From NCBI GenBank assembly GCA_021782205.1, contig JAJXVH010000008.1:1-64000 (forward strand): a stretch of 64,000 bases of DNA. Reading direction: 5' to 3'. A model generated the notes under the pieces. The model worked only from the letters and a program-made list of their open reading frames with translations. It searched no databases and was not told where the DNA came from. This DNA is from a bacterium (GTDB lineage Bacteria; Elusimicrobiota; Elusimicrobia; UBA1565; UBA9628). Below are positions 57,563 through 63,976 of the stretch, one piece after another. The position numbers were made by a program, and so were the translations under genes. Numbering within the stretch: the first letter of the stretch is position 1; every line of letters begins with the position of its first letter.

Positions 57563-57573
<11 letters not shown>
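56563..57573 (-). CDS. putative zinc aminopeptidase lipoprotein (COG4324/PF10023 type)
   Basis: 336 residues. The signal peptide LLLLALLCACSP has lipobox-like cysteines, so it is probably a lipoprotein. LAETLIHELMHGTVYFRGQTDFDEA holds the HExxH zinc site (about residue 174) with the downstream acidic residues typical of the predicted aminopeptidase family. PYKGYFRKKRARAEA is also characteristic. No member's substrate is firmly known. It overlaps ispG by 11 bases and the glycosyltransferase-like gene by 4. Confidence 0.8.
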
Positions 57574-59563
<1,990 letters not shown>

Positions 59564-59981: not shown

Positions 59982-61237
59982 GCGCGCCCAGCGCCGCGCT
60001 GCGCCGCCGCACCTATCTGATCTGCCTGGCCGGCTGGCTGTTCGACTTCTACGACCTGATGCTGTTCGCCTACGTGGCCGCGGCCGTGGCCGCGGATTTT
60101 CACTGGGGGGCGGACGCGGCGCGCTATAAGGCGCTGGCCGTGGGCCTGGCGCTGGGAACGTCGGGGCTGGGCGGCATCGCCTTCGGCGGCCTGGCCGATA
60201 AATACGGCCGCAAGGCCGTGATGACCTGGACCATCCTGCTCTACTCCGTCGGGACCGGCCTATGCGGTTTGTCCTGGGGACTGACCAGCCTGCTGGCGTT
60301 TCGCGCGTTGACCGGTTTGGGCGTGGGCGGGGAATGGGCGACGGGCCACGCGCTGATGGCGGAGATATATCCCAAGGAAGAGCGCGGCCGAGCGTCGGCG
60401 CTCCTGCAGGCGGGGGAGCCTCTGGGCGTGGCGTTGGCGGTCGTCATGGGCCTGTGGGTCTGTCCGCGCATCGGCTGGCGCGCGGTGTTCCTGCTGTCGG
60501 CTCTGCCCGCGTTCACGGCCCTGCTGGTGCGCCGCCACGTGGCGGAGTCGCCGCTCTGGCTTCAACGGCGCGACGCTCCGGCGCGACCGTTCCTGGCGCC
60601 CTACCGCGAACTGTGGCGCGGACACCGCGGACGCGCGGCGCAGGCGTGGGCGCTGGGCACGGCGAAGCTCGCCACGTACTGGCTGACCTACGTCTGGCTG
60701 CCGGAATACTTCGCAGAACTGCTGGCGCGCGCGCACGCCGCGGGCCGCCCCGTTCCGGCGGGCTTCTCCGACATTCGGCTGAAGTTCATTCTTGTCGCTC
60801 AAGCCGCCCAATTCCTGGGGATGATGGTCTTCGGCGCCGCGGCCGACCGCTTCGGGCGCCGGCCCGCGTTCTGCGCCTACTCGCTGCTCACCGCCGCGGG
60901 GCTGTGGGCCATGGCCGCGCACGGCGACGCCTTGCTGACCCATCCGGAATTGTTCTGGCCCGCGCTGGGCGCCGTGGGCCTGGGCTCCGGCTGCACCGCC
61001 GGCTTCGGCGCGCTGCTGGCGGAGCTGTTTCCCACGTCGGTGCGCAACACCGCCATGGGCACGGTCTACAACCTGTCGCGCGGCGCGCAGTTCTTCACGC
61101 AGGCGGCCATGGGCGCGCTGGCCGCCGGCGTGGGCGTGGCGCACGGCCTGTGGCTGGCCTTCGCGTTCGCGATCTTCACCGCGACGTGGATCTGGACCTT
61201 TCCGGAGACGCGCGGCGTGACGCTGGCCGACGCCTGA
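59978..61237 (+). CDS. MFS transporter, metabolite:H+ symporter type
   Basis: About 419 residues with twelve helices. GGLADKYGRKAV is the loop 2-3 MFS motif, repeated in the second half as GAAADRFGRRPA. FDFYDLMLFAY and GVGGEWATGHALMAEIYPKEERGRASA match the AAHS/MHS groups that import aromatic or organic acids with protons. An import role for acids used by the acyl-CoA operon is possible but speculative. It starts from GTG at 59978; the 804-residue track ORF is an artefact reading through ispG antisense. Confidence 0.85.
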   Translation: MSAPSAALRRRTYLICLAGWLFDFYDLMLFAYVAAAVAADFHWGADAARYKALAVGLALGTSGLGGIAFGGLADKYGRKAVMTWTILLYSVGTGLCGLSWGLTSLLAFRALTGLGVGGEWATGHALMAEIYPKEERGRASALLQAGEPLGVALAVVMGLWVCPRIGWRAVFLLSALPAFTALLVRRHVAESPLWLQRRDAPARPFLAPYRELWRGHRGRAAQAWALGTAKLATYWLTYVWLPEYFAELLARAHAAGRPVPAGFSDIRLKFILVAQAAQFLGMMVFGAAADRFGRRPAFCAYSLLTAAGLWAMAAHGDALLTHPELFWPALGAVGLGSGCTAGFGALLAELFPTSVRNTAMGTVYNLSRGAQFFTQAAMGALAAGVGVAHGLWLAFAFAIFTATWIWTFPETRGVTLADA

Positions 61238-61257
61238 CGGAAAGCGCGCGGACCTGC

Positions 61258-61263
61258 TATACT
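61258..61263 (+). promoter_or_regulatory. -10 element of the RDD gene
   Basis: TATACT lies 31 nt before the RDD-protein ATG, which has AAGGAG in between. A CTGACG with 18-nt spacing could be the -35. Confidence 0.4.
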
Positions 61264-61294
61264 GCGCGCGGGCCGCACCAAAGGAGCCGACATC

Positions 61295-61726
61295 ATGGAA
61301 CTTGCCTCGCGCTGGAAACGTTTGGGAGCGGCCGTCATCGACGCCGCCCTGTTGTCCATCCCGCTGGGCATGAGCATGCTCCAGTCGCAGATTCCCGAGG
61401 CCGTCCTCCTGGTCTTCGCGGTCGCCGGATTCCTGTTCGCGATCGCGCAGATCATCCTCCTGGCCCAGCGCGGACAGACCGTCGGCAAGATCCTGCTGGG
61501 CATCAAGATCGTGCGCCGCGACACCGGGGAGAACGGCGGCTTCGTCACCAACGTGCTCCTGCGCGGCCTGCTCAACGGCCTGCTGAACCTGATCCCGGTC
61601 TACTTCCTCGTCGACTCCTGCCTGATCTTCCGCGAGGACCGGCGTTGCGTGCACGACATGATCGCGGGCACCGTGGTCGTGAACGTGGACCCGGCCTCCG
61701 AAGCACCGGCCGCGCCCGCCGCTTAA
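61295..61726 (+). CDS. RDD-family membrane protein
   Basis: 143 residues with three hydrophobic segments. The name-giving pattern is present: ASRWKRLGAAVIDA at the N-terminus and CVHDMIAGTVVV near the end, with QTVGKILLGIKIVRRDTGE in the middle. RDD proteins may be small transporters; one is a proposed Na+/H+ antiporter. AAGGAG precedes the ATG. After the stop a short AGGGC/GCCCT hairpin (61740-61753) without a clear T-run may act as a weak terminator. Confidence 0.85.
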   Translation: MELASRWKRLGAAVIDAALLSIPLGMSMLQSQIPEAVLLVFAVAGFLFAIAQIILLAQRGQTVGKILLGIKIVRRDTGENGGFVTNVLLRGLLNGLLNLIPVYFLVDSCLIFREDRRCVHDMIAGTVVVNVDPASEAPAAPAA

Positions 61727-61754
61727 AAAGAAGCCCCAAAGGGCGTTTGCCCTC

Positions 61755-61783
61755 TTGACGCGTCCACGCGTCGGCTCCATACT
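61755..61783 (+). promoter_or_regulatory. sigma70-like promoter of the toxin-like gene, with internal palindrome
   Basis: TTGACG (61755-61760), 17 nt, CATACT (61778-61783). The -35 and spacer contain GACGCGT-CC-ACGCGTC (61757-61772), a perfect 7-bp inverted repeat that could be an operator. Confidence 0.55.
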
Positions 61784-61804
61784 GCAAGGGAAGACCCTCT
61801 TCCC

Positions 61805-63631
61805 ATGAAACGACGACGCCTGTGGTCGTTGGCTTTTGTCGCTTTGGCCGCGCGGGCCCGCGCCCAGGCCCCGGTCGACGTTGCACACAACGCGCTGACC
61901 CGCCTGGGGGGGACGTGCGCGTCGTTGACGCGCGGCGACTACGCCGCGGAGGCGCGCCGTCCCGTGGCTGGCTATCTTGATGCCTTGAGCGCCGCCGCCG
62001 ATCAAATGCGCCAAGACGAAATCCGGAACGCCTCATCGGCGCGCGCGAAAGCACTTGAACGCTTCGACAACAATGCGCGTCACGATGTCGAGACAGAGAG
62101 AGAATTCTGGAGCAATTCCAGCGCCGCGGCACCGGTCCTGCCTCCTGCGACCGCCGAGTCCTTATGCCGCGACGTCACCGATCTTTCTCGGCTGTTAGCC
62201 GAACTCAACCCGCGCACCGGCTTCAACGGCGGCTCTCCTGCCAGCCTCCTTGGCGCAGCCGCTTCGCCTGTTGCCGTGACGGCGGTCTCTCACGCCGCCG
62301 CAACGGCCGCGCTCGCCATAACCTCTCCCTTGGCCGCTTTCGACGGTGCCGGCAGCTCGCGTACGTCGTCACCATCGGTCACGACGTTCGTAGGGGCTCT
62401 GTCGGCCAGACCTGGGCGGTTTACGTCCATCACCCCAGTGTCCGATCTTCACGGCCCGATCGTGCCCGCTCCGCTTCTCGCGACGGCCTCCGCGAAGTCC
62501 GGCCCAGGGGCTCTCGATCAACTGGGGATGTGGACTTATCAAACCGGCCGAGGATACGTGACGGGAGCCGCGAACATGATCCTGGGTACGGCGGACTTGG
62601 TCAACCGAGGCACGAACCTCGTTCTCGATCTGACCCCGATCAAGTTCCGCTTCCAGACGGACATGGACATTCCCGCGCAATCACGGAGCGAGCGCTACGC
62701 CCAGAACGCGGTCAACGACGTCTCTTTGCTCTACTCAGGAGTCGGGCTCGCCCGAAGCGTTCCCGCGTTCATCGAAGCGGGTGATGCCGCGGTCGCCGAC
62801 ATCTCGCAATGGGGCGACCCCTATTTCAGGGGCAGAGCCGCGGCGCTCGCGCCGAATACCGCGCGAGTGTTCTCAGAGCAATCGATTCTTCGCAACGCCG
62901 CGATCACGGGCCGGGAAACCCGGATCGACGCGGCGATAAAGCAACTCGGTGTTGATCGGACGTTCGCGGAAAAAATTGCCGACGCCCACGATCAAGTGCC
63001 TTGCCCAGTATGGGGGTGCACGCGCGCGCAGTTGCTCCAGAAGATGCGGATTATGGGCAATTCCCCCGCAAGCGGCGCCGCGATCCGCAGCGGCCTGGCC
63101 GGCGATCCGCCCAATAATTTCGCGCTGGACGTCGGCAACGCTTCCGCGCCGTATGCCGACACGACGGGAGCCTTCGGCGGAGCGCACGGCGCCGCCTCGC
63201 CAAAAATCGCGTTGGCGCCGGCTCGCTTCTTCAAAAACGTTGAGATTCTGAACCGAGGCGGGGGACCCATCGGAGAGTTCGACGGTGTGAATCTTGACGA
63301 AATGAAATTCGTCGAAGACAAGTCGGCCGTCGGTTTAAAAAGGGTCAACCCACGTACGGGTATGCCCGCGCAAACTGCGTCCGACTGGGCCCGCAGGCAG
63401 ATTTTCGATAAGACAAACGCCCGCATCGCCAATCTCCAGGAAGCCGTCCGCACAAGGCCGTCCGGTGGCGCGACTGCTGCGCCCGACATGGCGACGATGA
63501 GATCCATCCATCACTTGGAATTCGATATCACCGATGACTCTCCGGAAGTACGCACGGCAGTCGATGCGGCGCTCAAATCCTTACGAGAAACGCATCCAAA
63601 CTGGAACTTCACGGCTGTCTTCGGACACTGA
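61805..63631 (+). CDS. exported protein with toxin-like nuclease C-terminus
   Basis: 608 residues. It has a basic signal peptide (MKRRRLWSLAFVALAARARAQ) and then a long Ala/Ser-rich region. From about residue 490 there is a compact domain: GEFDGVNLDEMKFVEDKSAVGL, then NPRTGMPAQTASDWARRQIFDKT and IHHLEFDI. The EFD...EDKSA...NPRTG pattern recalls C-terminal nuclease domains of CdiA-type polymorphic toxins, with (E/D)xK as the likely catalytic core. The preceding CPVWGCTRAQLL and GNSPASG region may be a pretoxin or linker. A small gene follows after 18 bases and would be its immunity protein. The toxin role is inferred from family resemblance and gene order. Confidence 0.6.
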   Translation: MKRRRLWSLAFVALAARARAQAPVDVAHNALTRLGGTCASLTRGDYAAEARRPVAGYLDALSAAADQMRQDEIRNASSARAKALERFDNNARHDVETEREFWSNSSAAAPVLPPATAESLCRDVTDLSRLLAELNPRTGFNGGSPASLLGAAASPVAVTAVSHAAATAALAITSPLAAFDGAGSSRTSSPSVTTFVGALSARPGRFTSITPVSDLHGPIVPAPLLATASAKSGPGALDQLGMWTYQTGRGYVTGAANMILGTADLVNRGTNLVLDLTPIKFRFQTDMDIPAQSRSERYAQNAVNDVSLLYSGVGLARSVPAFIEAGDAAVADISQWGDPYFRGRAAALAPNTARVFSEQSILRNAAITGRETRIDAAIKQLGVDRTFAEKIADAHDQVPCPVWGCTRAQLLQKMRIMGNSPASGAAIRSGLAGDPPNNFALDVGNASAPYADTTGAFGGAHGAASPKIALAPARFFKNVEILNRGGGPIGEFDGVNLDEMKFVEDKSAVGLKRVNPRTGMPAQTASDWARRQIFDKTNARIANLQEAVRTRPSGGATAAPDMATMRSIHHLEFDITDDSPEVRTAVDAALKSLRETHPNWNFTAVFGH

Positions 63632-63649
63632 TCTGGCAAGACTAAGATA

Positions 63650-63976
63650 ATGTCCATCGCACTTTTGATCGCGAACCCGGACGGCCATCAAGTCAACCGA
63701 TATCTTCCCATTGCCACCGAATCCGACTTCAAGGAATATTGGCTGCCCGGATGCGTGGCTCTGAATTTAACCCGAGTCGCGTCATTTTCGATGGGATTCA
63801 CTCTTCGCCCAGACGATGTATCAGAAATCAATGGCGAATTGTTGCGGCTCGACCTGTGGGCGAAGGATTCGCTCGATCCACCGATTTATCGAAAAATCCA
63901 CAATCGAATACAGCTCCTGAGCAAAAGTCTCCGGAACCTTCAGCGCCGGCCAGGAATCGAAGCCTCCATCGGCTGA
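63650..63976 (+). CDS. small protein, probable immunity partner of the upstream toxin-like protein
   Basis: 108 residues, cytosolic, no known family. It begins MSIALLIANPDGHQVNRYLP and ends in a charged helix (NRIQLLSKSLRNLQRR). It lies 18 bases after the toxin-like gene and has the lower-GC, less biased codon use seen at the end of that gene, as expected for an exchanged toxin-immunity module. No motif proves the function. The last 24 bases of the window after its stop hold nothing recognisable. Confidence 0.5.
   Translation: MSIALLIANPDGHQVNRYLPIATESDFKEYWLPGCVALNLTRVASFSMGFTLRPDDVSEINGELLRLDLWAKDSLDPPIYRKIHNRIQLLSKSLRNLQRRPGIEASIG

Follow-up and report, generated by a model that had tools for sequence, protein, structure and literature searches.

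Our analysis indicates that a 608-aa protein encoded in the window (the whole 64,000-nucleotide stretch analysed, bases 1-64000 of a 72.5-kb contig from a 3.1-Mb, 96%-complete genome) is very probably a Sec-exported polymorphic nuclease toxin, and that the 108-aa protein encoded directly behind it is its cognate immunity protein, the two genes forming a cassette between two conserved chromosomal genes. The toxin gene (61805..63631, plus strand) and the immunity gene (63650..63976, plus strand), whose start lies 18 bases past the toxin stop codon, are both real, and the motifs EFD...VEDKSA...NPRTG of the original prediction lie where it had placed them. Its reading of a toxin with a cognate immunity gene is strongly supported by the swapping of the toxin C-terminus at this locus, by a constant pairing of the two families and by the delivery backbones on which the same domain is found; from these sequence comparisons we infer toxicity and its neutralisation.

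The toxin protein begins with MKRRRLWSLAFVALAARARA followed by QAP, which by eye is an n/h/c-type Sec signal peptide (residues 1-20; 61805..61864, plus strand) made up of KRRR, a hydrophobic core and an AxA site, with probable cleavage between ARA and QAP; also read by eye, the start (...AARARAQAP) has no lipobox cysteine. The signal is conserved in the orthologue of a same-genus genome, G010 (MERRRLWSLLILLFAVGARA followed by QAP), and similar in G007. A conserved N-terminal backbone domain follows (residues 21-190; 61865..62374, plus strand), 53-57% identical in G010 and 31-33% in G007, whose distant relative lies at another place and is cut by a contig end; no further clear match was found among the 235 genomes of the class, a patchy distribution of 2-3 genomes in 235. 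The middle region (residues 191-350; 62375..62854, plus strand) is variable and poorly alignable with that of G010, which is longer and hydrophobic by comparison.

Close to the swap junction ends a pre-toxin module of about 85 aa (62864..63112, plus strand; AHDxVPCxVxxCTxAQL...IRSGLAGDPP), which carries two cysteines and is 71% identical in G010. In two further genomes of the order the module recurs, at about 40% identity, within proteins of 2,100-2,400 aa; it is not specific to toxins and could serve in trafficking or processing. In these long proteins (2,371 aa in G044, L130:889-8004; at least 2,163 aa in G055, L131) it lies in the middle and there are Gly/Ser-rich stretches; the G044 protein has a visible signal peptide and a C-terminal membrane segment.

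Neither the toxin nor the small protein matched any Pfam or NCBIfam family, so that VgrG, PAAR, LXG and TPS domains were not found, bearing out what had been said of the first three; Pfam shows no TPS, LXG/WXG, PAAR or Rhs domain in the toxin protein. A PDB search matched neither protein at E below 0.2.

Upstream of the pair a consensus scan located TTGACG-17-CATACT (61755..61783, plus strand), probably a sigma-70-type promoter of the cassette: both hexamers are identical in G010 and nearly the whole spacer is kept, while the DNA just upstream is more diverged, leaving the promoter-like element as a conserved patch in a diverged intergenic stretch. Codon composition sets the end of the cassette apart, in agreement with the less GC-biased codons first noticed there. 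Over the window the median GC3 is 0.875, and the upstream gene reaches 0.916; the toxin gene stands at 0.71-0.76 outside the C-terminal domain and at 0.649 within it, and the small gene at 0.593. In G010, as in the window, the lowest GC3 falls on the C-terminus and the small gene. The long minus-strand ORF at 60260-62014, which lies across conserved genes, is most likely a by-product of composition.

Among 97 relatives a full orthologue of the toxin gene was found in G010 only, at the same locus, between the same RDD-like gene (before) and the same SDR-like gene (after). The two alleles share promoter, signal peptide, N-terminus and module; the last ~110 residues of the G010 protein, however, are unrelated to the window's C-terminus, and its small gene is a different, Cys-rich ORF, about 70 aa long. 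At the DNA level the flanks agree at 81% and 91% identity, and inside the cassette, beyond the first few hundred bases, the module alone can be aligned (258 bp, 77%). Eight further same-genus genomes (G003, G005, G006, G007, G011, G012, G013 and G014) lack the pair at this locus and have the RDD-like gene directly beside the SDR-like one; this is the empty site. Sequence comparison thus shows the borders of the domains, the swapping of the C-terminus, its constant pairing with the small gene and the insertion of the cassette at a defined locus. Swapped C-termini in relatives, which the original prediction had proposed to look for, thus do occur: the same-genus G010 has one with its own small gene, and is the one complete swapped relative of the window's own backbone. 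The G010 allele (L061:3575-5823; G010:C170) ends in KHGAERIRGQG...WEWRPR; neither this C-terminus nor the Cys-rich putative immunity ORF matches Pfam, and the allele is possibly a second unnamed toxin/immunity pair.

The C-terminal toxin domain of the window (residues 471-608; 63215..63628, plus strand) has relatives in distant bacteria. The window has a single copy of the domain's degenerate motif pattern, against none in 100 shuffles. A scan of GTDB genomes with EFD...EDK[S/N/T]A...WA returned 26 stretches; nine loci proved to be true homologues, four in Hymenobacter, three in Corallococcus, and one each in Chitinophaga and Chryseobacterium, and the remaining stretches are chance matches. 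All nine lie at or near a C-terminus and are 40-46% identical to the last 138 residues of the window protein; the resulting alignment of 10 sequences (A1) has invariant GEFD, F.EDK.A, W-A and K-T..R. The Chitinophaga homologue is carried on an Rhs backbone (RHS_repeat, E=9e-48), that of Corallococcus exercitus on a 3257-aa Rhs protein, and a Hymenobacter homologue is fused to Hcp/TssD (TssD, E=7.5e-12). Further Corallococcus homologues are 500-650-aa proteins with an apparent lipobox, whose backbones are 48-58% identical to same-genus backbones ending in Tox-REase-5 (PF15648); since one backbone bears either ending, the window-type domain and Tox-REase-5 use the same exchangeable slot. The domain is thus common to Rhs, Hcp/TssD, lipoprotein-type and window backbones, and conservation in housekeeping proteins, which would speak against a toxin, is not what was found. 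The earlier description of a CdiA-type nuclease toxin was only loosely right, with no named CdiA or Pfam toxin family matched.

Exact 8-mer searches with the single C-terminal sequence gave nothing in plasmids, phages, IMG/VR or GTDB, and no relative came up when viral contigs were scanned with a profile. A phage match at E=0.8 was disregarded, weak class-wide matches (E at or above 0.003) were treated as noise, and an NSUN5_fdxn-like Pfam match of some A1 members covers 27 residues only, below cut-off. Two observations concern these backbones more generally: the Hymenobacter negativus fusion (L032:1-1233) is an evolved-Hcp effector in a Bacteroidota genome, and three Corallococcus genomes (L115-L129) have seven to nine Tox-REase-5 matches each, several of which share a 390-aa SitA-like backbone, a large swap family.

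The small gene keeps company with the toxin domain wherever the latter was found. In seven genomes (4-11 Mb) behind the homologue loci, surveyed with the toxin profile A1 and the immunity profile A2, 12 of 12 toxin matches, one of them a 26-residue remnant, are followed 18-59 nt downstream by a match of the small-gene family (P0002, profile A2); because the genomes are 4-11 Mb, this pairing is not chance. There were 13 immunity matches, the thirteenth in tandem behind another immunity gene. Relatives therefore keep the downstream gene, whose loss had been named as grounds for rejecting the pair. Identity between the small protein of the window and its A2 homologues is 17-32%, with M1, P20, YW.P, E63 and L67 invariant, and the AlphaFold2 model of the small protein has a pLDDT of 92.0. 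The term ‘orphan’ first applied to it holds within the class, where 235 genomes gave no convincing homologue, but not beyond, where homologues are clear; such a class-wide absence is as expected for a pair that, on this distribution, would have been acquired horizontally. A match in G043 (E=0.007) was treated as noise, and a match of the A2 profile to C-type-lectin neck helices as coiled-coil-like similarity; a fold search with the immunity protein gave no match, nor did comparison with Imm52. In Hymenobacter terrenus (L049 and L045) the same toxin cassettes and immunity genes form tandem arrays, in which one toxin frame is fused to the immunity gene behind it, a toxin remnant of 26 residues stands before an immunity gene, and one tandem immunity gene is an orphan.

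What the toxin domain may do is suggested by its motif and by its AlphaFold2 model (pLDDT 92.8). The predicted metal-site residues D493 (63281-63283), E504 (63314-63316) and K506 (63320-63322, all plus strand) correspond to D23, E34 and K36 of A1 and are invariant. The model contains a three-stranded meander in which strand 2 holds the D and strand 3 the ExK; next come a long helix that bears the invariant K-T..R and then further strands (its elements include strands 18-26 and 31-36 and helix 55-76). The model thus has the PD-(D/E)xK layout of D...(D/E)xK on two neighbouring strands, then a helix. Foldseek matches to the PDB are weak, the best (E=0.026) being to unrelated transporters and ABC ATPases, with the PA3907-PA3908 effector-immunity entry at rank 17 (E=0.16, TM 0.39); in BFVD, restriction endonucleases, DUF559 and PD-(D/E)XK proteins are among the best matches, which are also weak (E at or above 0.026). 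No A1 member matched the Tox-REase-5 Pfam model, and hhalign of A1 against it was non-significant (probability 4%, E=0.0095), aligning the FDG...ExK hairpin only. This layout, the fold matches and the non-significant profile together lead us to regard the domain as most likely a metal-dependent nuclease of the PD-(D/E)xK class, lying, by profile comparison, outside Tox-REase-5.

Its substrate is more likely DNA than RNA. That the same cassette carries instead an RNase (tRNase or rRNase) or another phosphodiesterase is possible, if on the unlikely side: the fold does not reveal the substrate, no named nuclease family was matched, and PD-(D/E)xK toxins are mostly, not exclusively, DNases. In favour of a DNase, the D-ExK site is a classical REase metal site, and DNA is the substrate of most PD-(D/E)xK members that have been characterised (PMC3482391).

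We propose that the 608-aa protein would be exported by Sec, its N-terminal backbone and pre-toxin module carrying the exchangeable C-terminal domain, which would cleave nucleic acid in the cytoplasm of a competing cell through D493, E504 and K506, while the 108-aa protein would stay in the producer cytoplasm, bind the toxin domain and shield producer and kin. Of this scheme we infer the nuclease activity from motif and fold, and likewise the neutralisation, the antibacterial target, the crossing of the producer's own outer membrane and the entry into the target cell.

These features place the window pair very likely among the bacterial polymorphic toxins, a system of a known kind, in which the toxin and immunity families and the short backbone are new. 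MafB/MafI of Neisseria (PMC4287609, PMC7738311) are alike in the Sec signal, the short genus-restricted N-terminal domain with no stalk, the variable C-terminal toxin and the immunity gene just downstream; in contrast, the window protein has no Pfam match to DUF1020, no MafA-like gene lies beside the cassette (the upstream RDD-like gene is also present in cassette-free relatives), and the toxin and immunity families are others. SitA/SitI of myxobacteria (PMC5562445, PMC8546572) share the short exported backbone, the swappable nuclease C-terminus and the adjacent immunity gene, and SitA-like Corallococcus proteins with a lipoprotein-like start bear the window's very toxin and immunity families. 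However, SitA is delivered by TraAB-dependent outer-membrane exchange (PMC5562445, PMC8546572), whereas the window protein has no lipobox and does not show a type II signal, and its backbone showed no relation to the Corallococcus backbone beyond the toxin domain. Tox-REase-5 with Imm52 (PMC3482391) resembles the pair in FDG...ExK spacing, predicted fold class and the slot taken on the Corallococcus backbone, but differs by the absent Pfam match, the non-significant profile match and a small protein that is not Imm52. In CdiA-CT/CdiI, too, an exported protein ends in a toxin and the immunity gene follows directly, the two being swapped as a unit; the window protein, however, is several times shorter, without TPS domain, haemagglutinin repeats or VENN junction, and no CdiB accompanies it, the upstream gene being RDD-like and conserved without the toxin.

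As for delivery, VipB/TssC, the T6SS marker sought, had no match in the 96%-complete genome, and the toxin has a Sec signal; three secretins are present, and no secretion apparatus is linked to the cassette. The original claim that the delivery route would be new was overstated: export by a signal peptide alone (T2SS/Sec) is the default polymorphic-toxin route (Zhang 2012; PMC3482391, Table 1), and both MafB (PMC4287609; MafA-dependent, PMC7738311) and SitA (PMC5562445) are short exported toxins without a stalk, making the combination of Sec signal, short backbone and variable C-terminus an established one. The window protein has neither DUF1020, a MafA-like neighbour nor a lipobox, so neither the MafB nor the SitA route is assigned to it, and novelty is not thereby established. 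We consider it unlikely, yet worth stating, that the genus-restricted N-terminal domain and the Cys-containing module form an undescribed device, which would carry a nuclease from the periplasm out into a competitor, perhaps by way of one of the three secretins, and would need no stalk, T6SS or lipoprotein exchange.

Sec export and the lack of a dedicated interbacterial secretion system among the findings (no TssC in the genome) would also suit a toxin directed against eukaryotic cells or predators, with a small gene that serves merely to prevent self-damage before export, and some REase toxins do act on eukaryotic hosts (PMC3482391). We hold this to be very unlikely: dedicated immunity genes, co-inherited and co-swapped, point to conflict with producer-like cells, host-aimed REase effectors are without immunity genes (PMC3482391), and homologues of the domain sit on Rhs, Hcp and SitA-like backbones. 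The gene order, toxin directly upstream of a neutraliser-like gene, is equally that of an intracellular toxin-antitoxin or defence module, but the conserved Sec signal, the long exported backbone and the homologous domains on Rhs and Hcp delivery proteins make such a module, rather than an exported weapon, extremely improbable. A secreted housekeeping or degradative nuclease beside an unrelated small gene, for which the signal peptide and the failure of HMMs to match a known toxin family might speak, is scarcely credible, being already contradicted by the G010 swap together with the pairing conserved across phyla, and facing also the eight empty sites and the patchy backbone.

With the probable polymorphic toxin of the window and its partner come two matched families, one of toxins and one of immunity proteins, which Pfam and NCBIfam lack although both are found, with at least four backbones, in Bacteroidota, in Myxococcota and in the lineage of the window. 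The locus, seen empty, occupied, and occupied with a swapped warhead, offers a clean natural comparison for a short Sec-exported backbone. Elsewhere in the window, the minus-strand gene at 57563-59563 encodes an IspG-like protein of 666 aa, longer than the ~370-aa IspG of E. coli and, recognised by eye, probably the large insert-containing form of that enzyme.
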